From a virus, in IMG/VR virus record IMGVR_UViG_3300025687_000159, positions 1-34,817 of that record: DNA of 34,817 nt, one strand, 5' to 3'. Shown piece by piece: positions 10,488 through 33,400 of this stretch. The notes beneath the pieces were generated by a model. That model was not told the origin of the DNA. It was given only the letters and a program-made list of their open reading frames with translations, and searched no databases. The first letter of the stretch is position 1. Every line of letters starts with the position of its first letter. The translations under genes and the position numbers were made by a program.

Positions 10488-12068
10488 TCAGAGCTCCACT
10501 GAGACGCGCACACGGCGCGCCTTGAAGGTGTCCTCGAAGCCGTCGCCCTCGTCCTCTTGCTCCTCCGTCGGTACGAAGCCGTCGCCCTCGTCGCTCTCCG
10601 CGCCTTCGTCGGCTCCCTCAGCGAGCTCTTGCTCACCCTCACCGCCCTCCATACTGAGCGCCGTGACGTAGGTCTGGTTGAGCACGATGTCGCCCCCCTT
10701 CTCAAGAGGCTCAAGGCCGTTCGCGGCGCGCACCTCGTTAATCGTGAGGTAGTGTGACACCTTGTCCACGTCGCTCTTGAGCTTTGAGCTTGCGTCCTCG
10801 GCATCCAAACCAACGAAGCGAAACGAGAGCTCTGGGTCGATCGGATGAATGATCCACCGATTGATCCACCCTTGCACCTGCCGCAAGAGGGGACGCAGAC
10901 CGCGATCTTTTGAGGCGAGGATGCGTTGCTCTGGGCCACCTTGAGACAACGAGCTTGTCACGCCCTCACTGCCGAACACGAAGCCCAGCTCGGCAGGGTC
11001 GATCTGATAGATTGCACACGCGATCTTTGTCAGATACCCCATCCACGTCGAATAGCCCATCTCCTCTGCGCTCGATCCCATGTTGACCGACGAGACCTCC
11101 TCGTTGGCCTCCGGGTCGAGCTGTAGGATCGGCGTTCTCTTGGCGTTCTGTGCGCCGCTCAACATCGCATAGAAGTCACGCCGAAACGCCCTAAACATCT
11201 GAGGCGACATCTTCGACTTGACGGCGAGGATGCTGTTGACATGAATACCATTCACAAAGTTGGCGGCGTTGTACGTCTCAGCGTTGACGAGATAAGTCAC
11301 AGTCCTCACAAGCTCGGCGAGCTCTGGGTAGCCGTAGCCTCTCGAATATATCCACGTTCTAGGACGTCTCACGGCGAAAGCGAGCGAGTCAGCGTCCCAC
11401 TCGGCGACCTTCTTTTGATTGATCACTTGAATGAACGCCGCCTCATCCCAGTCACGCCTCCCCTCTTTGCGCGCCTCATCATCGACGCTCGCTCGACGGA
11501 TCGTCGAGGCGTCAACAGGCACGAAGCCGACGACCTCCCCCTTGCGGTTCCTCATCAGCTCAAACGCCGCTTGATCGTACGTCAACGAGTCTCTGAGCAC
11601 CATACGCACAAACGACTCGAAGTCATACGCGCCGCCGTACTTGTAGCCCTCGCCACACGTCTCAAGCCAAGCGGTGAGCTCGCCGATGCGCTTCTTCATC
11701 GCGTCGTCGATCTCCGCGTCCTTCTGTCGTGGGGCGATCACAAAGCCGGCGTCGTAGGGGCTGTCTTGAGGCGTACAGAACTCAGCGACTTGATTGATCC
11801 TCGTCTGGATGATCGCTGAGATCACCGGCACCTGCGCCATCGACAGCAGAACATCGTAGTCAAGACCGAGCGTCCCCTCGTGCTCTGTCGATCTGTATGC
11901 GTCACCATACGCCGTCGCGCTGTCCCAGGGGTTCAGATCGTGCGCCGTTGGGAGCGCGCTGTACTCGCCCTTCTGTCCTTTGAGCGCTTTTGAGATGACC
12001 TCCTCTGCTTCGGTGGCGAGCTGTGCCATCGTCTCAAAATAGTTCGGTGTAGGGTTGTGCGCCTTCAT
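10488..12068 (-). CDS. Phage portal protein
   Basis: A 526-residue protein starting MKAHNPTPNYFETM; this ATG overlaps the stop of the M15 peptidase gene (ATGA), favouring it over a longer frame to 12092. Portal features include LLSMAQVPVISAIIQTRINQ (the wing/stem entry helix region), the 'FVRMVLRDSLTYDQAAFELM' segment, VGFVPVDASTIRR, YLVNAETYNAANFVNG, and YLTKIACAIYQIDPAELGF followed by a Gln/Gly-rich loop and a WINRWIIHPI helix. These match HK97/SPP1-type portals, which form the dodecameric DNA channel at the head vertex. The last 60 residues are very acidic (Glu/Asp/Gly), then basic. Position upstream of MuF, protease and capsid fits. Confidence 0.9.
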   Translation of the reverse strand: MKAHNPTPNYFETMAQLATEAEEVISKALKGQKGEYSALPTAHDLNPWDSATAYGDAYRSTEHEGTLGLDYDVLLSMAQVPVISAIIQTRINQVAEFCTPQDSPYDAGFVIAPRQKDAEIDDAMKKRIGELTAWLETCGEGYKYGGAYDFESFVRMVLRDSLTYDQAAFELMRNRKGEVVGFVPVDASTIRRASVDDEARKEGRRDWDEAAFIQVINQKKVAEWDADSLAFAVRRPRTWIYSRGYGYPELAELVRTVTYLVNAETYNAANFVNGIHVNSILAVKSKMSPQMFRAFRRDFYAMLSGAQNAKRTPILQLDPEANEEVSSVNMGSSAEEMGYSTWMGYLTKIACAIYQIDPAELGFVFGSEGVTSSLSQGGPEQRILASKDRGLRPLLRQVQGWINRWIIHPIDPELSFRFVGLDAEDASSKLKSDVDKVSHYLTINEVRAANGLEPLEKGGDIVLNQTYVTALSMEGGEGEQELAEGADEGAESDEGDGFVPTEEQEDEGDGFEDTFKARRVRVSVEL

Positions 12069-12460
12069 GGTGTCACTCCTCGGCCGTACCAACGAGCGCG
12101 GCGACCTCTAACGTCATAATGTACAAAGGTTTCATACAAGCCTAGACCACCCTCGGCCATCTTACCCTCAGCGATCAAACGCTCAATGATACGATGTACC
12201 TCTCTCGGCTCGTACCCCTTGACCTTGATGTCCGCCGCACAAGCGCTCATGTGTTGCGATCTAGGCGCTCCGTTGATCCGCTTGTTGTACGCTGGCGATC
12301 TGTACCCACTGATCACTCGTATCGGCGCGCCGAGCTCTGCGCGTAGCACCTCAAGCTGACGTACAAGTCGCTCGACGTTGGCGCGTAAATCGCTTGGGAT
12401 CGGCTCGCCGTCCGGTGAGTCGAACTCACGAAGCTCAAAGTTTTCGCTGATCTGTGGCAT
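12065..12460 (-). CDS. M15-type peptidoglycan peptidase (D-Ala-D-Ala carboxypeptidase-like)
   Basis: A 131-residue single-domain protein; GAGG five bases before ATG 12460. RVISGYRSPAYNKRINGAPR leads into the zinc motif SQHMSACAADI (His70, Asp77), and the third ligand region is FVHYDVRG (His114, Asp116), the arrangement of the Peptidase_M15_3 family. The usual Gly in SxHxxGxAxD is Ala here. These enzymes cut peptide stems of peptidoglycan and in phages act as endolysins or virion-associated lysins. No signal peptide is seen. The gene is coupled to the portal and follows the deaminase and micro-ORF genes, so it could be a lysin with the membrane micro-ORFs supplying release, or a virion enzyme. 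Confidence 0.87.
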   Translation of the reverse strand: MPQISENFELREFDSPDGEPIPSDLRANVERLVRQLEVLRAELGAPIRVISGYRSPAYNKRINGAPRSQHMSACAADIKVKGYEPREVHRIIERLIAEGKMAEGGLGLYETFVHYDVRGRRARWYGRGVTP

Positions 12461-16784: not shown

Positions 16785-17386
16785 CGACTTACACCGCGTA
16801 TAGCCCAGAGACCGGAAAGCTCATCGCTAGAGAGGAGCGCTCAAGGCGTTTCACTCACTGCGTCGCCATCCCCCCCTCCGCTCATCGTCCATGCTACAGC
16901 GTTATGTCGCTTCACGGCTCCGAGAAGCTGGCGCACAAAGCAGGCAAGGTTCACGACCGCTACGTCGTTCTCCCTCTGAACACCGAGCCCAACGGCGTCA
17001 TCCCTGCTGTGTACGGCACGACCGAGAGTGGCAAGTGGGGCGTTGTGCGAGAGGCGCGTAAGATCGAGGCCGAGGCCACCGAGACCACCGAGTCCACCGA
17101 GGCCGAGACCACCGAGTCCACCGAGTCCACCGAGACCACCGAGTCCACCGAGTCCACCGAGGCCGCCGAGACCACTAGGTACGATAACATCGTGACTGTG
17201 ATGAACGATCTCTTTAACGCTGGTAAGTACCTCGATCTCGCAAAGGTCGATGACCACAGTGATCTCCCCTACGTCTCACACCCCTCGACAGGTGATGCGA
17301 TCTACGTCACCTCAGACGCAGACACAACCACATTCTATCGCCGCACCGTTGACGGCGCTGTCACTCGCTACACCTTCGCCAACTAA
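16781..17386 (+). CDS. Unknown protein with Thr/Glu/Ser repeat linker
   Basis: A 201-residue protein. Residues 1-95 look like a small beta-rich domain (MTTYTAYSPETGKLIAREER, then HCVAIPPSAHRPCYSVMSLH) with two Cys and several His. Residues about 98-133 are a low-complexity linker of ETTEST/ESTEA units encoded by GAGACCACC/GAGTCCACC repeats. The C-terminal part (about 134-201) has alternating polar strands (YVSHPSTGDAIYVTSDADTT). No domain is recognised. It shares its complete leader with the pentapeptide gene immediately downstream and lies behind promoter copy A. Confidence 0.72.
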   Translation: MTTYTAYSPETGKLIAREERSRRFTHCVAIPPSAHRPCYSVMSLHGSEKLAHKAGKVHDRYVVLPLNTEPNGVIPAVYGTTESGKWGVVREARKIEAEATETTESTEAETTESTESTETTESTESTEAAETTRYDNIVTVMNDLFNAGKYLDLAKVDDHSDLPYVSHPSTGDAIYVTSDADTTTFYRRTVDGAVTRYTFAN

Positions 17387-17400
17387 GACCGGCACACCCA

Positions 17401-17457
17401 CACCGACACAACGACACAGCGCCTCCCCCTTCGGCGCTACACAGGAGACAGACATGA
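17401..17457 (+). repeat. 57-bp leader repeat, copy 2
   Basis: Exact copy of 16728-16784, ending at the start of the pentapeptide gene; hairpin arms at 17418-17423 and 17433-17438. A third, truncated copy (19 bases, CACCGACACAACGACACAG, 18064-18082) follows the pentapeptide gene. The repeats therefore flank each gene and could mediate cassette gain or loss by recombination. Confidence 0.93.
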
Positions 17458-18056
17458 GCAACCTCAAGACCGATCACAGCGACATCGACTTCGGCAACAT
17501 CGACATCGACACCAACCTCATGCTCCGCGACTTCGCTGGCGCTGACCTCTCGTACATCGACGCCGATCACATGAGCTTCGCCGGCTCTGACCTTCGCGGC
17601 GCCAACCTCACCGGGGCAAGCCTCGCTCACTGCGACTTCGACAACGCTGACCTCACCGGCGCAAACCTCCAGAGCGCCAAGCTGTTCGGCGCTGACCTCC
17701 GCTTCGTGAGCCTTCGTGGCGCTGATCTGCGTAGCGCTCGCATCGGTGGCGCGAAGCTCGCTGGCGCTGATCTGCGTGGCGCTGACCTCTCTCACACCGA
17801 GATCGACGCGAGCGACCTTGCCGGCGTTGAGGCGCTCGATGGCGCGACGCTCCCCTCGAACATCTCCCTCAGCGCGTTCATCGAGACGAGCCTGTTCAGC
17901 GTCAACGGTGGTGAGCCCCTCACAGGCGAGGCGATCATGGAGATCAACGACTACGACGACGAGGCGCACGAGGCGCTTGTGCGCGCCATCGAGAACGGCG
18001 CCATCGAGGGCGAGAACGGTGTGAGCGACATCGTGCTCGTTCGTCTGCGCGGCTGA
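17454..18056 (+). CDS. Pentapeptide-repeat protein
   Basis: A 200-residue protein from MSNLKTDHSDID with the shared leader SD. Residues about 25-125 are pentapeptide repeats of the A(D/N)LXX type (GADLSYIDADHMSF, GSDLRGANLTGASL, NADLTGANLQSAKL, GADLRGADLSH), expected to fold as a right-handed quadrilateral beta-helix. The C-terminal 75 residues are non-repetitive and acidic. Some pentapeptide proteins mimic DNA and inhibit gyrase (Qnr, MfpA), others are scaffolds; no specific activity can be assigned. A second, separate pentapeptide gene lies at 21688-22449. Confidence 0.88.
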   Translation: MSNLKTDHSDIDFGNIDIDTNLMLRDFAGADLSYIDADHMSFAGSDLRGANLTGASLAHCDFDNADLTGANLQSAKLFGADLRFVSLRGADLRSARIGGAKLAGADLRGADLSHTEIDASDLAGVEALDGATLPSNISLSAFIETSLFSVNGGEPLTGEAIMEINDYDDEAHEALVRAIENGAIEGENGVSDIVLVRLRG

Positions 18057-18132: not shown

Positions 18133-18584
18133 ACGCTCTTTCGTTTCGGTCGCGGAACCGCTGTCCACTGCCACCTCGTAGGCTCGCCCTCATAGCACGG
18201 CGTCCAGCTCTGCGACGTGGGGAGGTAGATCAACGAATATGAGTAGGCGCGCCTCACCTGCTCATCGAGCTCCCCACGTCGTAGCGCCCTCTCGATGGGG
18301 CGAGCGTAGAACGTCACCTGGTAGCGCGCCTCTAGTCGGCTGAGGCGCTCTAGGATGTGCGCCGCCTCGACGAGCAGGTGAGGTGACGTCGCGAGTGACG
18401 CCGGCAGACCGAGCCCCTCGACGTGAGGTCGCCCACAGCGTAAGCGCGCCTCATAGACGCGAGCGGCGCGAGCCCACGTCGTCACCACACCCTCACGTCG
18501 CCTCTCGGTCGAGGGCGCCCACGTCAGCTCACCGCGCTCTGGGTTGTACAACGCGCCCTCAGCGCCACCGATCAAGCGCCTCAC
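18120..18584 (-). CDS. Unknown 154-aa basic protein
   Basis: Starts with GTG 18584, overlapping the stop of the small-terminase candidate (GTGA), which argues for coupled expression. The protein is Arg-rich (TWAPSTERRREGVVTTWARA, HILERLSRLEARYQVTFYAR, RALRRGELDEQVRRAYSYSL) and mostly helical with a Trp/Pro-rich end (QSWTPCYEGEPTRWQWTAVP). I recognise no domain. Its coupling to a putative packaging gene suggests a DNA-binding or packaging accessory role, but this is positional inference only. Confidence 0.68.
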   Translation of the reverse strand: MRRLIGGAEGALYNPERGELTWAPSTERRREGVVTTWARAARVYEARLRCGRPHVEGLGLPASLATSPHLLVEAAHILERLSRLEARYQVTFYARPIERALRRGELDEQVRRAYSYSLIYLPTSQSWTPCYEGEPTRWQWTAVPRPKRKSVPTS

Positions 18585-19261
18585 TCGTCACCGCCTCTCG
18601 GTGTCACGTCGATCACGTCGAGCTCACGCTGGCTCGGTGGGGGCGGTAGGGCCTCCCCACGTTGAGCCGCTGTTTGCGAGCGCGACAGCCACTCACCGAG
18701 CTGAGCGAGGTGCGACTCGTCGAAGCCTAGTCGCGCTTGTGTGTCCGCGAGCGACGCCTCCAGGCTCAGCGTCACGTTGGTCTGCGTCGAGGTCGCTGTC
18801 GTCGTCACCTGCTCACGTCGCACCGCCGGCAGATAGGAGCGCCCCCCACGTCGCTCAAGCATCCACAGCGCCGTCGAGCTCCCCTTGCCACCAGCCTCGG
18901 CGAGCAACTGCCACCGGACGCGACACATCGCCATCGCTCGGTCGAGCGTATAGCCGAGCGCCCACGTCCACGTCGACTCACCGATCACGTCGCTCGCTCG
19001 CTCACCCTCGCCCTCCAACGCTCGCTCGCTCGCTCGATAACGCTTGAGCGCCTTGTCGAAGAACGGCCAGCGCGCACCCTCGATCAGCGCCGCGTCCTTC
19101 AACGTCGCACCGAACACCACGCGCTCAGCCACACGTAGCGCTCGCTCGATCTCTTTGGGGCGTGGCTCGGTCACGCCGGCGAACTGCCCCACGTCGAGCG
19201 GCGGTAGTTGTTCGCGGACTCGTTGCTCGACCTCACGTTGCTTCTCCTCTTTCGTGCTCAT
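18581..19261 (-). CDS. Small terminase subunit candidate
   Basis: A 226-residue protein from MSTKEEKQREVEQ; two ATGs are adjacent (19264, 19261) and the second is better spaced from GAGGAG. Residues about 40-80 (PKEIERALRVAERVVFGATL followed by KDAALIEGARWPFFDKALKR) look like a helix-turn-helix, and about 100-145 (RAMAMCRVRWQLLAEAGGKG, STALWMLERRGGRSYLP) carries an 'A/TxWxLERR' helix I associate with small terminases. The C-terminal part is helical and Pro-rich. It borders the repeat-rich intergenic region, consistent with a pac-site-binding protein beside its target. The large subunit is 9 kb away on the other strand. Moderate confidence; a generic HTH regulator is the alternative. Confidence 0.6.
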   Translation of the reverse strand: MSTKEEKQREVEQRVREQLPPLDVGQFAGVTEPRPKEIERALRVAERVVFGATLKDAALIEGARWPFFDKALKRYRASERALEGEGERASDVIGESTWTWALGYTLDRAMAMCRVRWQLLAEAGGKGSSTALWMLERRGGRSYLPAVRREQVTTTATSTQTNVTLSLEASLADTQARLGFDESHLAQLGEWLSRSQTAAQRGEALPPPPSQRELDVIDVTPRGGDE

Positions 19262-19346
19262 CATCGCTCCTCTCTCTGGACGTTGTCTCGCTGATCTTAA
19301 CACAGCGCGAGGGAGGTGTTGGTGTAGTTGAACGGCGCGAAAAGCT
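19262..19346. other. Gene-free spacer upstream of small-terminase candidate
   Basis: Contains the GAGGAG SD of the leftward gene and a transition from GC-rich to AT-rich sequence. One imperfect repeat unit, TGTAGTT, is at 19323-19329, marking the left edge of the repeat cluster. No ORF is convincing here. Confidence 0.5.
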
Positions 19347-19613
19347 AACTACATACATAACTACATGCCCAACTACATAACGAAAAACGTAGCAACAACG
19401 CGAGGTTGGCGTGTACATGTAGTTTATGTAGTTAGATCGAGGGTCGCTCGCCAATATATGAGAGATGTGAGAGATGTGAGAGATGTGAGAGAAGCTAGAG
19501 CTGTGGACTTCGATTTTAACTACATAAACTACATGATCCATGTAAGGTTCTGAAAAACAAGAGGAAAAAGCATGTAGTTAGTCATGTAGTTAGTATGTAG
19601 TTAGCATGTAGTT
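19347..19613. repeat. Iteron-like cluster of ATGTAGTT/AACTACAT
   Basis: Eleven exact copies of the 8-mer in 267 bp: AACTACAT at 19347, 19359, 19371, 19518 and 19527; ATGTAGTT at 19417, 19426, 19572, 19584, 19595 and 19606. The first three are 12 bases apart; others are 9, 11 or 12 apart, roughly one helical turn. Between 19456 and 19492 lies GAGAGATGT repeated in tandem. The region is AT-rich against a GC-rich genome. This is typical of a replication origin, a packaging recognition site or a multi-site operator. No direct evidence chooses between them. Confidence 0.9.
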
Positions 19614-20354
19614 AGCCGTTTCATCTGTCACCAAACAGCGAAAATCGCGAAACGGCCCCCCAAGTCACGCTGATCGGCGAGCAACGCCAGAGCGCCTCAC
19701 GCTGACCGGTGATCGACGAGGGGAGCTCCCTCGGTGCCACGTCGATCATCGAGCGCGGCTCACGTCGCACAGTGACCCCGGCCTCACCAGGCACAGCGTC
19801 GCTCATCGATCATCGAGGGGAGCTCCCTCAACGTCACAGCGCCTCGACGTCACAGCGCCGCTCATCGAGCCTGGTTCGGTGGGGCTCACGCGCACACACG
19901 CGAGGAAAGGGACGTAGAGCGCATGATCTTCTCTGCTTTTGAGCCCCTAGCGCCTCAACGTCACACCGGCACAGCGCCACACCGGCACAACGCAACAGCG
20001 TCTCATCGACCTGTACATATTGGGTACGCAACAGCGCGACGTATCCTCTATGGTGCGCCGTTGTAGGAGACTGCGCTTGACAGCTCGCTGATCGTATGAG
20101 ACAAGGTGACTGTGCGCTCTTGTGGAGCCCACTCTCGGCCCCTTCTCCTCTTCTGTTGCCGGCAAGCTTGAGAGAGGTTTTGGGGTCTTGTGCTTTTCTG
20201 CGTTCGTGCCAACGCCCCCAGCGCCTCAGCGCCTCAGCGCCTCAACGAAAAAGACCTCACGAGAGCGGCGTGATGGAGTGTGTCGGCGAACAACGACTCG
20301 ATGATGCTCAGTGAGGTCGCCCTATAGAACACGCGAAACGATGAAAGTCTTTCG
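19614..20354. other. Large gene-free region with palindromes and short repeats
   Basis: About 740 bp without a convincing gene. It holds two copies of CGAGGGGAGCTCCCTC (19717-19732 and 19814-19829), each centred on the perfect palindrome GGGAGCTCCC; many short GC-rich words (CGCCTCA, CACACCGGCAC, CAGCGCCT three times in tandem near 20220-20250); and a TTGACA at about 20068 without a good -10. No tRNA fold was found by eye. Together with the iteron cluster it looks like a cis-acting control region. Confidence 0.7.
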
Positions 20355-20708
20355 TCAGTGACCGAGTTTTTTGAGATCGCGCTCCATCTCGTCACAACGC
20401 TCATCGAGCTTGTCGATGAGGGCGTGTGCGCGCTCCACGTCGATCTTGAGGAGCTTGTGAGCGTTGTTCATCAGCTCGGTGTCCTGCCGCTGATCCTTTT
20501 GGAGCGTCGCGAGGGCGTCCTCGAGCTTCTTGACGCGCTCGTTGGTGTCTTTGTCGCGCTCCTTGAGCAGCTCGATGTAGGCGACTCCCAACTTGTAGGC
20601 GACGAACAGGGCGACACAAGCGACAACGGCCCACGATCCGATCTGTTGAGCGACCTGGGCGAGCGAGTCAATGGACGGCTGAGGGTGTGTGATCTGATCC
20701 GGCGTCAT
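20355..20708 (-). CDS. Membrane-anchored coiled-coil protein (possible spanin/holin partner)
   Basis: A 117-residue protein from MTPDQITHPQPSID with the extended SD CTAGGAGACACG. One membrane helix spans about 24-46 (GSWAVVACVALFVAYKLGVA), followed by about 70 charged residues with heptad character (ELLKERDKDTNERVKKLEDA, LDERCDEMERDLKKLGH), a likely coiled coil. This topology fits inner-membrane spanins, XhlA-like lysis accessory proteins or membrane anchors. No partner outer-membrane lipoprotein is evident nearby. Function is inferred from topology. Confidence 0.7.
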   Translation of the reverse strand: MTPDQITHPQPSIDSLAQVAQQIGSWAVVACVALFVAYKLGVAYIELLKERDKDTNERVKKLEDALATLQKDQRQDTELMNNAHKLLKIDVERAHALIDKLDERCDEMERDLKKLGH

Positions 20709-20765
20709 CGTGTCTCCTAGATCGTCGAGCGTCGAGCTAGGGTACATGATACACGCTAGGGGTGT

Positions 20766-21623
20766 TCAGCGCTCTTTACGTTGTTCGGCTTTGGCTTGCT
20801 CACGTTGCGCCCAGAGATAGATCGTGGACTCTGAAACACCGAACAGGGTGGCGACGTCTTTTGCGGACGTGCCTTGCTTGTATAGCGTGAGCGCTTCGCT
20901 GACGCGTCGCTCTTTGGTCTGTTCGCGCTTGGTGTGGTCGGCGTATCGTCGAGCCCATTGGTACACTCTGGGTGTGCTGACACCGACCTCGGCGCTGATC
21001 TGTAGGTGGTGTACGCCTGCCTCATAGAGCTCAACGACGCGGCGCACACGCACGTCGGTCTCGTAGGTGACGGTGCTTTTCTTGACGCATTGCTTATTGG
21101 CGGTCTTGTACCTTGCTTGCTTGTTGGGCTTGTAGCGCTGGACCCAATCGTAAACGGTGCCCCTCGCAATACCGAGCTCGTTGGCGATGTCTGCAACGTA
21201 AGCGCCGGCCTCATAGAGCTCGGTGAAGCGTTGTACGCGCTCCTTTGATGGCGCTTGTATGGCGCGCATCCGCTCACTCTGACGCTGTCTGCTTCGCTCG
21301 CTCCAGCGTTGCTTTGGGAACCTTCGCTTCTTGACGCCGACCTCATGCGCCCACGCGCAGACGGTGGTCTGTGTGACGCCGATCTCCTCAGCGATCTCAC
21401 GTTGTGTCAGCTCACCTTCTCTCAAGAGCTCAACGGCTCGGTCTTTGCGCGCCTTCCTTTGTTCCTTTGTGAGCGTTGAGCGCTTTGACGTTGTGGCGCT
21501 AGGCGCTTTGGGTGCTTTGACCTTTGGCTCGCCTGGCGCGAGGTAGGGTCGCCCGGAGTACTTGAGGCTCAGCTCGTTGAGCCGAGCGAGCTTCTTTGCT
21601 TCGTAGATGTCTTGGGGTGTCAT
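20766..21623 (-). CDS. Protein with four tandem helix-turn-helix modules
   Basis: A 285-residue, strongly basic protein from MTPQDIYEAKKLARL; the SD is weak and no other start fits. After about 55 linker residues come four homologous HTH units of the transposase/resolvase (homeodomain-like) type, each with an acidic or Tyr-rich helix, a [I/V]A..[I/L]GV turn and a terminal Trp: about 60-95 (LTQREIAEEIGVTQTTVCAW), 129-164 (VADIANELGIARGTVYDW), 192-227 (LQISAEVGVSTPRVYQW) and 239-275 (AKDVATLFGVSESTIYLW). The conserved Trp residues lie at 91, 160, 223 and 271. Linkers are Lys/Arg-rich. No catalytic domain is present. It should contact a long, possibly repetitive, DNA site; the iteron cluster about 1.1 kb away is a natural candidate. 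Confidence 0.82.
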   Translation of the reverse strand: MTPQDIYEAKKLARLNELSLKYSGRPYLAPGEPKVKAPKAPSATTSKRSTLTKEQRKARKDRAVELLREGELTQREIAEEIGVTQTTVCAWAHEVGVKKRRFPKQRWSERSRQRQSERMRAIQAPSKERVQRFTELYEAGAYVADIANELGIARGTVYDWVQRYKPNKQARYKTANKQCVKKSTVTYETDVRVRRVVELYEAGVHHLQISAEVGVSTPRVYQWARRYADHTKREQTKERRVSEALTLYKQGTSAKDVATLFGVSESTIYLWAQREQAKAEQRKER

Positions 21624-21687: not shown

Positions 21688-22449
21688 TTAGTCGTTGTCG
21701 ATGGAGTCGGCCCAGTCAGCGAGGAGGTCACACAGCTCGCCGTCTGGGTATCTGTGCGAGGTCAGCCCGGCGTGGGCGAGGTGTGCGTTGAGCGCCGAGG
21801 CGGCGGTGTAGTGCGCGTTCTCAGCGGCGTAGGCCTTACGCTCGATGCGCGCTACTCGCCTCTCATCGCGCTCTAGCGCCGCGCCGTTGGCGAGGATGGC
21901 GACCTCAGCGCGCCCTACCTGGATGATACGAGACGCCAGGGTAGAACGGAGCTCGTGGGGGACAACGTGTACACCGTGCTTTGAGACGTGCTCCCACGAG
22001 GGGAGCTTCAGCGTGACCTTCTGACCGTGTCCGGTGTACGTGACCTCCGCAGGCGGAGGTGTGTCACCGATCATGGGCGCGCTGAGGTCGGCGTCGTTGA
22101 GGTTGGCGCCTGTCAAGTTGGCGTCGTTGAGGTTTGCGGCGTAGAGCTTGGCGCCTGTGAGCACCGCGCCTGTGAGCTTCGTGCGGATGAGGTTGGCGCC
22201 GATCAAGTTGGCGCCGGTCAAGTTGGCGCCTGTCAAGTCTGCGTCGCTGATGTTGGCGCCGGTGAGGTTTGCCCCACTGAGATCAACACCAGCGAGCTTT
22301 GCGTCGATGAGACTGACCTTGCGCAGATCGGCACCTGTCAAGTTTGCGCCCTCGATGTGTGCGGTCGTGAGGCCGTCTAGGGCGAGTCCGCGCCCATTTC
22401 CACGCAGGAGGGCGGCGATGTTGGGTTTTGTCGGTGTGTAGTATGGCAT
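21688..22449 (-). CDS. Second pentapeptide-repeat protein with C-terminal domain
   Basis: A 253-residue protein from MPYYTPTKPNIAALLRG; AAGGAAG precedes ATG 22449. Residues about 25-120 are regular A(N/D)LTG pentapeptide repeats (GANLTGADLRKVSL, GANLTGANISDADL, GANLIGANLIRTKL, AANLNDANLTGANL). Residues about 130-253 form a separate alpha-helical domain with His- and Ala-rich helices (AYAAENAHYTAASALNAHLA) ending in GELCDLLADWADSIDND. It differs from the first pentapeptide gene in having this large C-terminal domain. The beta-helix could mimic DNA; the extra domain may give specificity. Function unknown. Confidence 0.85.
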   Translation of the reverse strand: MPYYTPTKPNIAALLRGNGRGLALDGLTTAHIEGANLTGADLRKVSLIDAKLAGVDLSGANLTGANISDADLTGANLTGANLIGANLIRTKLTGAVLTGAKLYAANLNDANLTGANLNDADLSAPMIGDTPPPAEVTYTGHGQKVTLKLPSWEHVSKHGVHVVPHELRSTLASRIIQVGRAEVAILANGAALERDERRVARIERKAYAAENAHYTAASALNAHLAHAGLTSHRYPDGELCDLLADWADSIDND

Positions 22450-22459
22450 CGTAGCTTCC

Positions 22460-22720
22460 TTAGCGTGTGGTGATACGGATGAGCGACGCAACAGCGCGCA
22501 CAGCGAGCTTTGTGAGCGTGAAGGGCGAGACGCCCTCGGCGACCAGCTCGACAGCGTCAACAGCCTCACAAGCCTTGAGCTCGACCTCGGTGATCGTTGT
22601 GATGTGGTACTCAGCCGTGCCGATGTCGCTTTGGGGGTCGTACGCCGGGAGGTCGTACTGAGTGACGTTGGGGCGAAGCTCAAGTGAGTCGTCGTATCGG
22701 ATAGGTGAAGGGCGAGACAT
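22460..22720 (-). CDS. Unknown 86-aa protein
   Basis: Starts MSRPSPIRYDDSLELRPN two bases after the preceding stop, with GGAG eight bases upstream inside that gene. Residues about 33-60 (IGTAEYHITTITEVELKACE) look beta then helix, and the end (PFTLTKLAVRAVASLIRITT) is an amphipathic, basic helix. It lies between an unknown gene and the second pentapeptide gene, all probably transcribed from the promoter at 23243-23271. Confidence 0.68.
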   Translation of the reverse strand: MSRPSPIRYDDSLELRPNVTQYDLPAYDPQSDIGTAEYHITTITEVELKACEAVDAVELVAEGVSPFTLTKLAVRAVASLIRITTR

Positions 22721-24732: not shown

Positions 24733-25398
24733 ATGCACAGACCAAGCGCTGTCGCTCTCTACGGCGACGGCATAGGACACGTGACCCTCGTTCACCACAG
24801 CGGCGACGACTTGAGCGCCGTGAACGCGGCGCGAGTATCGTTCGGCGCGGAGCGTAAGAAGCTCGACGCCAAGGACGTTAAACTGCTCAACTATCTCGCC
24901 GAGCACAACCACACGAGCCCCTTTGAACACTGCTCAGTGACCTTTCGCGTGAAAGTTCCGCTGTTCGTCGCTCGCCAGTGGATGAGACACCGTACACAGA
25001 GTTTCAATGAAATCTCGCGTAGATACACCTCGGTGAACATCGAGCTGTGGACACCGAGCACCTTACGCAAGCAAGCTGAGAGCAACCGACAAGCGAGCGA
25101 GGGTGTCTGTGAGAACACCAACGCCTCAGCGATCTATGAGGCGTCGCAGATGAACGCGCTGAGAGCGTATGAGGCGCTGATCGACGCTGGCGTGTGCCGT
25201 GAACAGGCTCGCGCAGTGCTCCCTCAGTCGATGTACACCGAGTTCATCGTCACAGCTAACTTGTTGAATTGGCTCAAGTTTATTGAGCTCCGTACCCACG
25301 AAGGCGCACAGCCGGAGATCGTCGAGGCCGCACAAGCGATCCGATCTACGTTGCTCGCCCTCTACCCACACACCGCCAGAGCATGGTTTCACCGATGA
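24733..25398 (+). CDS. thyX: Flavin-dependent thymidylate synthase
   Basis: A 221-residue protein with ACAGGAGACACG before ATG. The ThyX signature RHRTQSFNEISRRY is at 85-98, fitting RHR-x7-S. Supporting motifs: LLNYLAEHNHTSPFEHCSVT (His-rich helix), FVARQWMRHR, and the C-terminal REQARAVLPQSMYTEFIVTA NLLNW segment with FIELRTHEGAQPEI. It methylates dUMP to dTMP using methylene-tetrahydrofolate, NADPH and FAD. It follows recU and overlaps the ribonucleotide reductase start (ATGA), forming a nucleotide operon; the dCMP deaminase provides dUMP. Confidence 0.96.
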   Translation: MHRPSAVALYGDGIGHVTLVHHSGDDLSAVNAARVSFGAERKKLDAKDVKLLNYLAEHNHTSPFEHCSVTFRVKVPLFVARQWMRHRTQSFNEISRRYTSVNIELWTPSTLRKQAESNRQASEGVCENTNASAIYEASQMNALRAYEALIDAGVCREQARAVLPQSMYTEFIVTANLLNWLKFIELRTHEGAQPEIVEAAQAIRSTLLALYPHTARAWFHR

Positions 25399-27899
25399 CG
25401 ACAAAGCACACAGACCCACAACGAGAGGCGATGGGCGCCCTCAACTTCAAACAGTCATACGCACGATACGACGCCACAAAGAAGCGCCGTGAAAACTGGG
25501 GCGAGAGCGTCGAGCGCGTGATGGCGATGCACCGAGAGCATCTTGGGGAGCTCGCTGATGGTCTCTCAGAGGAGCTTGGGCTCATCGAGCAAGCGTACAA
25601 AGAGCGCCGCATCTTGGGCTCACAGCGCTCCCTCCAGTTCGGCGGTCACGCGATCCTCGACAAGCACCCACGAAGCTACAACTGCACGTCGTGCTATGTC
25701 GATGATACTAAACGCTTTTCTCAAGCGCTGTACCTGCTTCTCTGTGGCGCCGGTGTGGGCTATAGCGTCCAGCGCCACCACGTCGCACAGCTCCCCAACG
25801 TGATCAGCGCCCCGGCGCTCTCAAAGATGCCACAGAGCACGTATATCATCGAGGACACGATCGAGGGGTGGTGCGACGCGCTCGACGCGCTCGTCTCGGC
25901 GTACTTTGGGCTCAGCGATCAGCTCCCCTCATTCAGCTTTGAGCTCATCCGTCCGGAGGGAGCGGCGATCTCATCGTGCGGTGGCAAAGCGCCTGGGCCA
26001 TATCCGTTGAGGGTGATGTTGAGTGAGGCCGAGCGTCTCTTGCGTTCTCGCGTTGGTCAGCCTCTGCGCCCTTGCGACGCGAGCGACCTCATGTGTATCG
26101 CGGCTGACTGTGTGCGCGCCGGCGGTGTACGTCGATCAGCGCTCCTGTGTATGTTCTCGCCGGACGACGAGGACATGATCGCGTATAAGAGCGTCGATCA
26201 ATGGTGGGCGACGCACCCATATCGCGCTCGCGCTAACATCTCCGCGATGATCGAGCGTAGCGACCCAAAGGCGACGCAGTACTTTGAGGCGATCTTCGAG
26301 AAAACGCGAGCTTACGGCGAGCCGGCGACCATCTGGTGTGAGTCCACCGAGGTCGCCTACAACCCTTGCGTCACAGGCGACACGCTCGTCACGATGGCAG
26401 ACGGCACGACAGCGCGCATCGACTCTTTTGTCGGTGAGCGACGAGAGATCGCGATCGACGCTCGCTTTGGTAAGGGGCGCTCAGCGTGGACAACCGACGA
26501 GGGCGCGTTCGTGACACGTGAGCGCGCTGAGGTGTTCCGCTTGACGCTTGACAGCGGACACAGTGTGCGTCTGACCGCTGACCACCAGGTGATGACGACG
26601 GAAGGGTGGGTCGCGGCGAGCAACCTCAACGAGCGCTCAGTCGTCCATGTTGAGGGTGGGGGGATCGCTCGCTTCGTGTCGCTGATCTCAGAGGGGGAGG
26701 AGACGGTGTACGACCTCACACAGCCAGACACATCGAGCTTTATCGCCAACGGCGTCGTCGTCCACAACTGCGTTGAGATCGGCATGGTTCCGCTCTTGAT
26801 CCGCGACCCACAGGGGGAGGTGGTCGACGAGTACAGCCGCGATCTGCTCGACCCTTCACGTCGCCATCAGTGGCGCGCTAAGGGGTACACGTTCGAGACA
26901 GCGTTCCAGTTCTGCAATCTGACAGAGGTCAACGTCGCGGCGTGGACTAGTAAGCGTGAGGCATACGAGGCGGTTGAGCTCGCGACGATCTTGGGGTGCA
27001 TTCAAGCGAGCTACACGCTGACCGATGATGACTATCTCGCCGGCACAGCGACAAAGGCGATCTTGGAGCGCGAGTACCTGTGCGGCGTGTCGCTGACCGG
27101 CTTGGGCTCGGCGTCGCCGTTTGCGCGTGATGACAAGTTCCTCGCGGCGCTCGGCGCCTACTCTGCCGACGTCGCAAACAACTACTTTGAGCGATGTGGC
27201 TTGAAGAAGGCGCCAGCGAGGGTGACTTGCGTCAAGCCAAGCGGCAACGCCGCAGTCTTGCTCGGTGTATCGAGTGGCGTTCACGCCGAACACGCCCCTC
27301 GGTTCTTACGCCGTATGCAACAGCCGAAGAACAGCCCCATCGTGCAAGCGTTCGCTGAGGCCAACCCACAAGCGGTCGAGGACTCGGTGTGGTCGGCGCT
27401 TGGGACGGACTACGCTGTGAGCTTTGCGATCGAGACGCCACCAGGCGCTCGACTCAAGACCAACGAGACGGCGGAGGACTTCTTGCGGTGGGTGAGCGCC
27501 GTTCAAGGTGGGTGGGTCAAGAATGGTACACTGCGCCCAGAGAGCGTCGAGGGCCTGACGCACAACGTCTCGAACACGTGCGTCGTACATCCGCATGAGT
27601 GGGACGACGTTAAGAGGATGCTCTTGATGTACCGCTCGCAGTTTGGCGGCGTGTCGTGCCTCTCAGCGAGCGGCGACTACGACTACCCACAAGCGCCGTT
27701 TCAGCGTATTTTCGAGCCACAGGAGATCGAGGAGACCGATCCACACCGAGAGGCGAAGATCGCGGCGTGGGAGCTGTGGAACAAGCTTCGTGAGTCTCAC
27801 GTCGAGATCGACTACGACGCGATCATCGAGGAGGACGACAACACCGAGCTCATGGGCGAGGTCGCTTGCGCCGGTGGCGCGTGTGAGCTGACCCTCTAG
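25395..27899 (+). CDS. nrdJ: Class II (B12-dependent) ribonucleotide reductase with mini-intein
   Basis: Precursor of 834 residues from MTTKHTDPQREAMG; ATG 25395 overlaps the thyX stop, an alternative ATG is at 25383. Removing the 134-residue intein leaves about 700 residues, the size of monomeric class II reductases of the RTPR type. Motifs: YNCTSCYVDD (N-terminal redox Cys region), LLLCGAGVGYSVQ, the active-site NP/CVE split by the intein (Asn, thiyl-radical Cys, Glu), VKPSGNAAVLLGVSSGVHAE (substrate loop), THNVSNTCVVHPHEWDD, and the C-terminal redox pair in CAGGACELTL. It makes deoxyribonucleotides using adenosylcobalamin and needs no oxygen. Class II is inferred from these patterns and the absence of a small-subunit gene. 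Confidence 0.93.
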   Translation: MTTKHTDPQREAMGALNFKQSYARYDATKKRRENWGESVERVMAMHREHLGELADGLSEELGLIEQAYKERRILGSQRSLQFGGHAILDKHPRSYNCTSCYVDDTKRFSQALYLLLCGAGVGYSVQRHHVAQLPNVISAPALSKMPQSTYIIEDTIEGWCDALDALVSAYFGLSDQLPSFSFELIRPEGAAISSCGGKAPGPYPLRVMLSEAERLLRSRVGQPLRPCDASDLMCIAADCVRAGGVRRSALLCMFSPDDEDMIAYKSVDQWWATHPYRARANISAMIERSDPKATQYFEAIFEKTRAYGEPATIWCESTEVAYNPCVTGDTLVTMADGTTARIDSFVGERREIAIDARFGKGRSAWTTDEGAFVTRERAEVFRLTLDSGHSVRLTADHQVMTTEGWVAASNLNERSVVHVEGGGIARFVSLISEGEETVYDLTQPDTSSFIANGVVVHNCVEIGMVPLLIRDPQGEVVDEYSRDLLDPSRRHQWRAKGYTFETAFQFCNLTEVNVAAWTSKREAYEAVELATILGCIQASYTLTDDDYLAGTATKAILEREYLCGVSLTGLGSASPFARDDKFLAALGAYSADVANNYFERCGLKKAPARVTCVKPSGNAAVLLGVSSGVHAEHAPRFLRRMQQPKNSPIVQAFAEANPQAVEDSVWSALGTDYAVSFAIETPPGARLKTNETAEDFLRWVSAVQGGWVKNGTLRPESVEGLTHNVSNTCVVHPHEWDDVKRMLLMYRSQFGGVSCLSASGDYDYPQAPFQRIFEPQEIEETDPHREAKIAAWELWNKLRESHVEIDYDAIIEEDDNTELMGEVACAGGACELTL
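26367..26768 (+). other. Mini-intein in NrdJ
   Basis: A 134-residue in-frame insertion. Block A is CVTGDTLVTM at its start; block B is GHSVRLTADHQVMT with the TxxH residues; block F lies in EETVYDLTQPDTSSFIANG; and block G ends VVVHN, followed by Cys as +1 residue. No endonuclease domain fits between blocks B and F (only about 40 residues), so it is a mini-intein that can splice but not home. The +1 Cys is the catalytic Cys of NPCxE, so no reductase activity is possible before splicing. Confidence 0.93.
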
Positions 27900-28383: not shown

Positions 28384-30030
28384 ATGAGCATCGTACTCGC
28401 GTCAAGCCCACAAGAGCGACGTGCTTTGAGCGCTGTTTCGCCTGTATTTTTCGACACTTACTACTGCGGAATGAGGTTCGCTGAACATCGTAAGACGTGG
28501 TTTAGTCGCTTTGATAAAGCGTGGCAAGTAGCGAAAGAGACTAAGGAAAAAGGCCGCTTGTTGGTACTCGCCCCTCGTGATCATGGAAAAACTGAGGCGG
28601 CGATCACGTATGCGGTCAGGGCGATCTTGCTCAATCGAAACGTCCGCATCCTGTGGATATGTGAGAGCGCGGCACAGGCGGAGAAGCGTATGAGGCGCGT
28701 CAAGGCGCTCTTACGAACAGAGCGAGTCATCGAGGACTGGGCGAGCGATCCGGCGAGCGGGTGTACGCCACTTGAGAGCGAGGACGCGCCTTGGACGCAG
28801 ACTCAAGTGTACGTCCCACGTCAGCTTGAGAGCGTCGATCCTACGCTGACCTCGATCGGCTCTGGTGGCGCTGTGACCGGTGCTCACTTTGATCTGATCC
28901 TTGCGGATGACCTTGAGTCGGACACGACGACGTACACAGCGAGCCAACGCGACAAGACTAAGCGGTGGTTTAGAGCGACGGTGCTTCCGATGCTCACACG
29001 AGGTGGGCTGATCGTCTGTATCGGTACTCGCAAGCACTACGGCGACCTCTACGGCGACATCCTCAACGATCCCTCATGGAGCGTTCTTGACGATCCAGCG
29101 ATCATCAAGTGGCCTACGTCGCACCGCTTCATCATGGAGGAGCGCGACGGACGAGAGATCATCACCGACGTCGCTGTTGAGGGTGACTCACAGGTGCTGT
29201 GGCCGGAGGAGAGGCCGATCAAGTACCTGCTAAGAGAGCGTCGTTCGATGGGCTCACAGCTCTTTGCGCGTGAGTTTCAGAACCAAGTACAAGACGACTC
29301 AGCGGCGGCGTTCCGATACGAGTGGCTTGAGAGCGCGAAGAAGCGCGGCGCGAACCTCTCGCTGTACGAGCTCCCGGACGTCAAAAACCTTGAGATCGTG
29401 CAAGGTTGGGACTTCTCGCTTGTGCAGAGCGCCGCCGATGCAGAGAAGCGCGACACGGACTTCACGGTGGGGACGACGTGGGCGCGTGATCCGGCGAACG
29501 GTGATCACTATCTGCTCGGTCTATATAGGAAAAGAGGACTCAGCGCCTCAGAGCTTCGTGGCGCGGTGATCAGCGAGTTCGAGCGCTTTCGTGGTCGCGT
29601 CCGCTCAGTCGCTGTGGAGCGCAATGCGTTCGGCGAGCTCCACTACGTCGGACTCCAACAAACAACCGACCTTCCCCTCGTGGGGCACGTCACCACAGGA
29701 AAAAAGAAGGCTGATCCCTGGGAAGGCGTCGCGTCGCTCGGCGTACTCTTTGAGCGCGATAAAGTGGTCTTTCCGACGGCGACGTCAAGAGACCGAGAGA
29801 TCATTGAGCCGCTGATCCAAGAGCTCTGGGGACTTGGACGTGAGAAGCACGACGACACGGTGATGAGTCTGTGGATCGCTCACAGCGTCTTGAGGCTTGA
29901 GCGTTTTCAACATCGCTACATCGACTCACAGGGGCGTGAGGTCGACAGCGACGGCGCGGTCGAGGAGCATCCCAACGACGGCCTCGACGACTTTTGGGTG
30001 GATGTATTAAGCAAGGGCGATGCGTGGTAG
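28384..30030 (+). CDS. terL: Large terminase subunit
   Basis: A 548-residue protein with GGGAGG before ATG. ATPase: Walker A APRDHGKTE (63-71), Walker B FDLILADDLE (Asp175, Asp176), and the coupling motif IGTR (213-216). Nuclease: Asp343 in QGWDFSLVQ, Glu412 in VAVERNAFGE and the HDDTVMSLWIA motif with Asp490/Asp491, the RNase H-like catalytic set. The C-terminal 40 residues are acidic. It cuts concatemeric DNA and pumps it into the prohead. Unusually, it is on the opposite strand and about 16 kb from the portal, next to the fibre gene. Confidence 0.96.
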   Translation: MSIVLASSPQERRALSAVSPVFFDTYYCGMRFAEHRKTWFSRFDKAWQVAKETKEKGRLLVLAPRDHGKTEAAITYAVRAILLNRNVRILWICESAAQAEKRMRRVKALLRTERVIEDWASDPASGCTPLESEDAPWTQTQVYVPRQLESVDPTLTSIGSGGAVTGAHFDLILADDLESDTTTYTASQRDKTKRWFRATVLPMLTRGGLIVCIGTRKHYGDLYGDILNDPSWSVLDDPAIIKWPTSHRFIMEERDGREIITDVAVEGDSQVLWPEERPIKYLLRERRSMGSQLFAREFQNQVQDDSAAAFRYEWLESAKKRGANLSLYELPDVKNLEIVQGWDFSLVQSAADAEKRDTDFTVGTTWARDPANGDHYLLGLYRKRGLSASELRGAVISEFERFRGRVRSVAVERNAFGELHYVGLQQTTDLPLVGHVTTGKKKADPWEGVASLGVLFERDKVVFPTATSRDREIIEPLIQELWGLGREKHDDTVMSLWIAHSVLRLERFQHRYIDSQGREVDSDGAVEEHPNDGLDDFWVDVLSKGDAW

Positions 30031-30415: not shown

Positions 30416-33400
30416 ATGCCGATTTTACGTTTGTTTACGAGCGCCGGCACAGGCGCAACAGTCCCAGACGCGACAACAACGACAGCAGGCAAAGTCCGTT
30501 TGGCGACGATCGCCGAGGCCAACGGCACAAGCGAGCTGATCGCTGTCACACCGGCAGGTCTCCAAGCGGAGCTCGCCGGGCTCACAGGCGGTATGGAGTT
30601 CAAAGGCGCGTATGACATCGGCATCGGCGTCCCAGACCTCACCACCGGCTCGACGAAAAAGGGCGACTATTATGTCGTGACCAACGTCAAGCTGAACCCC
30701 ACCGACACCAACGTCACAAAAGAGCTTTACGGTCAAGAGTGGGCCGTTGGAGATCACCTCGTCGTGACTCGTGACATCGCGAGCGGCGAGACTGACTACG
30801 ACGACGCGATCACGAAGGTTGATAACAGCGAGTCGATCAGCGTCCTCACCGATCTTCTCGACGTTGCGATCAGCGCTGAGGCTGATGGACAGGTCTTGGT
30901 GTACGACGGCACAGGTGAGGAGTGGATCAATCGTGAGCTGACCGTCGCCGACGTGCTCAACGCGGTCACGCAAGCCGACCACGACGCGCTCGCCGCTCGT
31001 GTGACGGTGAACGAGGGTGACATCAGCTCGATTGACGGTCGCCTCACGACCGCTGAGGGCGAGATCAACGCACTTCAGACTGAGCAAGCGACGATAGAGA
31101 GTCACGTTGGCTTGAACAGCAACGGCTCGTATACGCCAGACCCCACCGCAAACTACATCAGCACAGCTACAACGCTGAAACAAGCGGACAGCATCCTCGA
31201 CGATCAAATCAAAATCAACCGAGACAGCTTGAGCTCGCTGAGTAGCAGAGTGGCGACAACGGAGAGCGAGACCGCCTCGCTCCAAAGTGAGCTCGACGCC
31301 ACACAGAGCGGCGCCGGTCTTGCGGCTGATGGGCAGTACATCACCTCACCGTCGGCAAACTACATCGCCAGCGCGACGAGCCTACGTGGGGCTGACACGT
31401 TGCTCGACGCTCAAGTAAAGCTGAACGCGAACGGCGTCGCGAGCCTTCAGTTCGAGCTCAACACCACACAGAGCGGTGCAGGGCTGACAAGCGGTGGTGC
31501 GTACATCGTGGACGGCGACGCCAACTACATCGCGAGCGCGACCAACCTCGCCGACGCGGACACGTTGCTTGATGCGAAGCTCAAAGAGACTCGCGACATC
31601 GTGGACAATCTAGGCGCAAACAGCGTCGCTTCTGTGAACGGCGTCTCACCTGTCTCTGGTGACGTGACTGTGGGTGGCGCTGACATCGACACAGCGCACA
31701 CCGCATCAAACTACACAGCAAGCGCCGCTGACCTCGACTCGCACCTCAGCGGTGTTGACACTGAGCTCGGCGCGCTACAGACGCAGATCACGAGCAACGA
31801 CGGCGACATCAGCTCGCTTGATGGGCGTGTGACAACCAACGAAGGCGACATCACAGCGCTCGATGGTCGCCTCACGACCGCAGAGGGCGACATCAACGGC
31901 CTACAGACCGAGCTCGACGCTACACAGGGCGGTGCAGGTCTTGAGGCGAACGGCGCTTACGTCGCCAACGTCTCGACCAACTACATCGGCGCTGTCTCAT
32001 CGCTCAAGGGAGCAGATGAGGCGCTCGACGCGAAGCTCAAAGAGACACGCGACCTCGTCGATAACTTCAGCACGAACAACGTCGCCTCAGTGAATGGCAT
32101 CTCGCCTGTCTCTGGTGATGTGACTGTGGGGGGCGCTGACATCGAGACAGCGCACACCGCAGTGAACTACACAGCGTCGTCCGCTGATCTCGACGCTCAC
32201 CTCGCAGGGCTCGACACTGAGGTCGGCCTCGCGGTCAACAGCGTCAATACGGTCACGCCCACCGATGGAGCGCTTACGCTTGGCGGCGCGGACATCGACA
32301 CAGCGCACACCGCGAGCGACTACACCGCGAGCGCCGCCGACCTCGACTCTCACCTCGCAGGCATTGACACACGCCTCAGTGAGAAGGCTAACAGCGCCGA
32401 CCTAGCGGACATCGCGACAAGCGGAGCGGCGAGCGACGCGAGCGTGAGCGCGACGCCCACCGAGTACAGCGCCGCGACCGCTGACGTTGAGGCGCACCTC
32501 GCCGGTATTGATACGCGCCTCGCCGACAAAGCGAACAGCGCTGATCTCGCAGACATCGCGACAAGCGGAGCGGCGAGCGACGCAAGCGTCGCCGCAACGC
32601 CGACAAACTACACGAGCGCGAGCGCCGACGTTGAGGCGCACCTCTCAGGCATCGACACCAAGCTCGGCACCTTAGAGACAGCGACCGTCAACAACATCGC
32701 CGCTGTGGACGGCAACATCACCATCGGCGGCGCTGACATCGACACAGCGCACACGGCTGTCAACTACACAGCGAGCGCCGCTGATCTCGACTCGCACCTC
32801 GCAGGGCTCGACACGGAGCTCGGCCTCGCGGTCAACAGCGTTAATACGGTCACGCCCACCGACGGCGCGCTTACGCTTGGCGGCGCTGACATCGACACAG
32901 CCCACACGGCTGTCAACTACACAGCGGCGTCCGCTGACCTCGACGCTCATCTTGCTGGACTCGACACAGCGGTCGGCCTCAAGGCGAACAGCGCCGATCT
33001 CGCAGACATCGCCACGAGCGGTCTCGCGTCGGACGCTGACGTGGGGCAGACCGGCCCACTCGACCCCGGTAAATATGTTTCCGCCGGCGCTTCTGTTCTC
33101 GACCACCTCACCGGCATCGCACAATATATGGCGACGGTGAACGGCGAGGCGCTGATCCAAGAGATAAAGAACAACCTCGCTGTCGATGCGATCACCCCGT
33201 TCGACTCGGCGAGTTCGCTGATCTACTATACACCAGCGAGCAACGAGACAGCGTTCACCGTCGCCTTGCCAGACATGGCAAACGAGACGATCACCGAGGT
33301 GAACAAGCTCGCGCCAAACATCTATTTTTACAACCGAGGGCAGGCTGACCTCACGTTCACAATCGTCACCACAGAGGCGAACGTGAACGGCGTTGATCTG

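Follow-up and report, generated by a model that had tools for sequence, protein, structure and literature searches.

Four tandem HTH modules in a stand-alone phage protein, and a neighbouring iteron array beside a terminase-small-subunit-like gene

Introduction

What does a stand-alone phage protein built from four tandem helix-turn-helix (HTH) modules read on DNA, and is its target the array of short repeats that lies near its gene? Both occur in a linear virus record from IMG/VR, the whole of which, 34,817 nt, was analysed and is here called the window (Table 1). An earlier note on this DNA had joined the two, proposing that the protein binds the repeats as an origin- or packaging-binding protein and that a protein of this kind is a plausible new system. 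Here we consider the protein, the array, and their counterparts in related phages.

Besides TerL and portal genes, the window encodes thymidylate synthase, ribonucleotide reductase, deoxynucleoside kinase and dCMP deaminase; the ribonucleotide reductase gene (25383-27899) is split by an intein (Intein_splicing, 1.9e-11). Two pentapeptide-repeat proteins (17250-18056 and 21688-22683) lie on opposite strands, either side of the array region, and a repetitive tail-fibre-like open reading frame (30416-34816) extends past the end of the record. Rfam and tRNA searches of the window returned zero matches. A genome scan for the host identified none; its matches were a 3.6-kb contig from a Deltaproteobacteria MAG (56%) and a weaker one from Lokiarchaeota.

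Table 1. Features of the window discussed in the text
Feature	Position	Strand	Remarks
Virus record	34,817 nt		linear; IMG/VR IMGVR_UViG_3300025687_000159
Portal	10488-12092		profile match
Terminase-small-subunit-like (TerS-like) gene	18581..19258	-	motif W.LERR; directly downstream of array
Non-coding region, one kilobase, holding the iteron array	19304-20354		
Iteron array, 11 exact ATGTAGTT	19347..19613	.	GC-skew minimum; equivalent place in relatives
Perfect inverted pair of iteron dimers, CATGTAGTTTATGTAGTTA / TAACTACATAAACTACATG, around 82-bp core	19416..19535	.	
Small protein, hydrophobic segment and coiled coil	20355..20747	-	upstream of array; weak profile matches only
Stand-alone protein, four tandem HTH modules, 285 aa from ATG	20766..21623	-	Pfam HTH_23, four stretches; AlphaFold2 model
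HTH module 4, residues about 238-284, Trp271	20802..20915	-	HTH_23 34.9 bits; highest model confidence
HTH module 3, residues about 191-226, Trp223	20940..21047	-	HTH_23 29.5 bits
HTH module 2, residues about 127-164, Trp160	21129..21230	-	HTH_23 29.4 bits
HTH module 1, residues about 53-94, Trp91	21345..21467	-	HTH_23 25.5 bits
TerL	28384-30030		profile match

Results

The four HTH units that the earlier note had read in the protein, each ending in a conserved tryptophan, are borne out by profile search and by structure prediction. In the genome search every unit separately exceeded the curated HTH_23 (PF13384) cut-off of 24.6 bits, at 25.5 to 34.9 bits, and the full protein matched this family in four stretches with E = 1.9e-27 (Pfam). 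Tryptophan occurs at residues 91, 107, 160, 223 and 271, and the units end at exactly the four positions that had been named, 91, 160, 223 and 271. Had only one HTH been real, structure prediction might have revealed it; AlphaFold2 returned four tri-helical units (residues 53-94, 127-164, 191-226 and about 238-284), with pLDDT mostly 81-96. The linkers have pLDDT below 50 and are disordered, except for one predicted helix, 217-249, that units 3 and 4 share. Since the model was built without an alignment and its pTM is 0.29, the four units are credible and their mutual placement is not. As the note had also claimed, there is no sign of a catalytic domain in Pfam, PHROG or further profile searches. 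The N-termini of the four recognition helices are all different (TQTT, ARGT, STPR and SEST).

Searches of viral contigs, and of phages and plasmids by tblastn, found no ortholog of the protein, and a search of related records gave a serine recombinase and weak HTH matches only. The model resembles the Pax6 paired domain, IstA, the CRISPR-repeat-binding structure 2lvs, Tc3 and CENP-B, none of them significantly, and in a viral structure library it matched many uncharacterised phage proteins and one D5 protein (5.1e-4). HTH profiles cross-match freely, so the family names in such lists carry little weight.

Multi-HTH proteins that stand alone turn up repeatedly in the phage group, and their modules number three, four or five. 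A five-HTH-like family, found at 11 viral loci, is strongly conserved (61-82% identity); three of the genomes that carry it (G024, G025 and G027), and another with a three-HTH protein (G050), have TerL or portal genes in common with the window. These proteins resemble the 285-aa protein in standing alone but differ from it in module number, linkers and position, and they align with it by single modules only (E = 0.005; 4e-6), which indicates that the architecture recurs and that the sequence changes fast. A scan of the collection for tandem AACTACAT returned mainly simple or coding repeats, and none of the 12 records then searched held a clear multi-HTH gene. Another tandem-repeat DNA-binding type, STPR-like peptide-repeat proteins, occurs in array-bearing relatives (L164:11196-12104, L171:4939-5670 and L212:10663-11088), the first recognised by PF21107 (6.5e-12) and the other two by reading.

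The eleven repeats described about 1.1 kb away, some at helical-turn spacing, are also there: 11 exact copies of ATGTAGTT lie 1.15 kb from the 3' end of the four-HTH gene. The window holds 15 copies, against 0.23 +/- 0.47 expected and a maximum of 2 in any of 100 shuffles, so the eleven-copy array is not a product of chance; the remaining four (31151-31986) are Asn-Tyr-Ile codons of the tail-fibre-like frame. The array is nested and nearly dyad-symmetric, with three reverse copies (spacings of 12 and 12 bp), two forward (9), an 82-bp core containing a 9-bp tandem repeat (about 19456-19500), two reverse (9) and four forward (12, 11 and 11).

Searches with TerL and the TerS-like gene brought up relatives, 11 of which carry a comparable two-orientation array upstream of the TerS-like gene. 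The repeat word is mostly the lineage's own: AGTTAAGAT in G008, G010 and G011, AGTGATGAT in G009, GGTGTCGAG in L164 and L171, AGTGGAGTA in L162, GCATAAGAT in L174 and TGATAGTA in L161, among others. At 10 of the 12 loci tested, no other stretch of the fetched DNA equalled the array; in G010 the competing stretch coincides in part with the array, and for G007, where the statistic failed, the repeats were recognised by eye and with a repeat finder. In a scan of the fetched genomes, the array outranked every other two-strand cluster of the window and of G008, G009, G010, G011, G052, G056 and G050. Choosing the TerS-bearing loci by TerS in part guarantees that array and gene are adjacent, but it does not dictate that the top cluster should fall at that place.

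The TerS-like gene is present in all tabulated array-bearing relatives, and G017 has an array though the TerS-like profile is unmatched there. In three of 11 members the relatives' proteins match the terminase small subunit family phrog_4102 (best 7.6e-6); the window's copy matched no family, and a model of the TerS-like protein gave no meaningful structure matches. By reading, G008-G011 also have a TM/coiled-coil protein in the position equivalent to that of the small protein upstream of the window's array. G007 has a second array (L088:1387-1563; GTGTACAGCGTGATCAC at 25-32 bp spacing) and, just downstream of it, a small ribbon-helix-helix-like protein with no Pfam match. Four loci carry a class III nucleotide-cyclase-like gene beside a small membrane protein (L164:13111-14408, L168:6893-8193, L171:6246-7579 and L212:5997-7336), which resembles a Pycsar-type cyclase/membrane effector pair; PADLOC gave no match for the pair in L164.

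The cumulative GC-skew minimum of the window is at 19303, 44 bp from the array. In G010 and G011 the minimum falls within the array; its distance from the array is 80 bp in G009, 104 bp in G008 and 2.5-5.1 kb in G007, G017, G052 and G056. G009-G011 are close kin and not independent, and the possibility that the contigs are incomplete bears on the skew calculation. Transcription is an unlikely cause of the skew in the window, where the genes either side of the array share a strand and no divergent gene pair lies closer than the one at about 24.4 kb.

Discussion

We lean towards the view that the four-HTH protein reads, as one chain, a long DNA site that is composite and asymmetric, and that it regulates phage transcription and/or replication in the manner of the D5 protein of phage T5. 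The regulatory role seems the most likely one because of the protein's architecture and the type of genome that encodes it, as with D5; single-chain binding, the composite site and the regulatory role are all inferred. In the model, modules 1 and 2 would move on flexible linkers while a continuous helix would hold modules 3 and 4 fixed, and together they would cover one long site made of four different sub-sites. Since each module has its own recognition helix, the site should be a composite, not four copies of one word. The long recognition site that the earlier note had supposed is in this respect a fair suggestion from the sequence.

Another candidate for the protein's target is the array itself. 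Neighbouring copies of ATGTAGTT, 9-12 bp apart, would be engaged by successive modules, and the resulting complex would help to start replication. The gene of the protein lies upstream of the array with one small gene in between, the repeats are spaced at about a helical turn, and the array sits at the skew minimum; moreover G050, whose TerS-like protein is the second closest found, combines an array with a three-HTH protein, so that a link may hold in some lineages. We nevertheless consider this assignment unlikely. The repeats are identical and the recognition helices are all different. No multi-HTH gene tracks the array among the relatives, as an initiator gene should: G010, G011, G052 and G056, which at 50-68 kb are near full length, have arrays and zero HTH_23 matches, G009 has an array and one such match, in an 88-aa frame, and G024, G025 and G027 have the five-HTH protein without a comparable array. 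In relatives with no multi-HTH protein the array thus stays beside the TerS-like gene, and the claim that the 285-aa protein binds the window's array is not supported. The array is a separate feature and is not assigned to the four-HTH protein.

Two further accounts of the protein draw on the families that its modules resemble. As a DNA-packaging protein, that is, a small terminase subunit with extra HTH modules, it would explain the matches to terminase-type HTH families (Terminase_5, 5.6e-20; phrog_2538, 3e-19; NF040601, 1.4e-9). The NF040601 match, however, reaches 37.9 bits against a cut-off of 120 and is restricted to the HTH part, and the genome encodes a further TerS-like protein, at 18581-19258; we regard a packaging role as most unlikely. 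It is very unlikely, too, that the modules are relic or domesticated DNA-binding domains of a transposase or recombinase with no specific phage role. They do resemble the HTHs of IS630, Hin-type resolvase and IS3, and near TerS one relative encodes a serine recombinase that has two HTHs, but all four modules are intact, in one open frame, within a co-directional run of genes, and multi-HTH proteins recur in relatives, where one such family is strongly conserved. The IS630, IS3 and IS481 transposase profiles score 63.0, 46.3 and 46.4 bits against cut-offs of 100, 160 and 224, and the catalytic domain is absent. Regulation by a single-chain reader of a composite site is the account that we prefer.

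As for the array, its position within about 100 bp of the skew minimum in the window and four relatives suggests that it is probably a replication origin. A packaging site (pac/cos) and an operator are alternative meanings; the former was considered because a TerS-like gene adjoins, and the skew minimum favours an origin. The word "origin" in the earlier note was thus a good guess for the array. With repeat words that vary from lineage to lineage, such an origin would require its initiator to evolve along with it. One could go further and picture a rapidly changing origin code in this phage group, with a single conserved arrangement (9-12-bp repeats in inverted pairs on either side of a core, upstream of a TerS-like gene), a different word in most lineages and interchangeable modular DNA-binding proteins as its readers, the four-HTH protein among them; we think this rather improbable. 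The conserved, lineage-specific array is a more interesting lead than the four-HTH protein and may be worth more: a probable origin in a conserved place beside a TerS-like gene makes the co-evolution of initiator and site open to test by swaps.

Literature searches on tandem or multiple HTH phage proteins, and on iterons near terminase genes, yielded nothing directly relevant. Tandem-HTH chains as such are already known, in Cbp1 (PMC10883916) and in paired domains, and T5 D5 looks like one, so the suggestion of a new system cannot be kept. The Pax paired domain and the DNA-binding domains of Tc3, Mos1 and IstA likewise place two HTH units on one chain and read a bipartite site; unlike the 285-aa protein they have just two units, which are mostly fused to other domains, and the fold matches to them are not significant. 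T5 D5 (AY543070), annotated as a "DNA-binding protein; required for DNA replication and late transcription", has 255 aa and weak HTH/Myb-type matches in four segments, and from its sequence and these Pfam matches it appears to be another multi-HTH chain. It is like the 285-aa protein in size, in its apparently several tandem HTH/Myb-like modules, in lacking an enzyme domain and in being a phage DNA-binding protein, and unlike it in module types. The D5-like family phrog_323 matches the 285-aa protein at 1.9e-13, covering part of the family, and pairwise similarity to D5 itself is not significant (BLASTP, E = 0.058). Cbp1 of the Sulfolobales is archaeal, with three modules and short linkers, and its profile, NF040595, gives the 285-aa protein 34.6 bits, below the cut-off of 140, so that the latter is not a member; the two are alike in being stand-alone chains of tandem HTH modules from duplication, with no enzyme domain. 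By analogy, then, the 285-aa protein may work like Cbp1 and T5 D5, a likeness that falls short of established membership in either family. From tandem-HTH chains one could learn how the addition of modules builds specificity for a long site; natural examples that have three, four and five of them occur in this phage group. The three HTHs of Cbp1 bind in order along one asymmetric CRISPR repeat, a tested precedent for modular reading by a single chain (PMC10883916).
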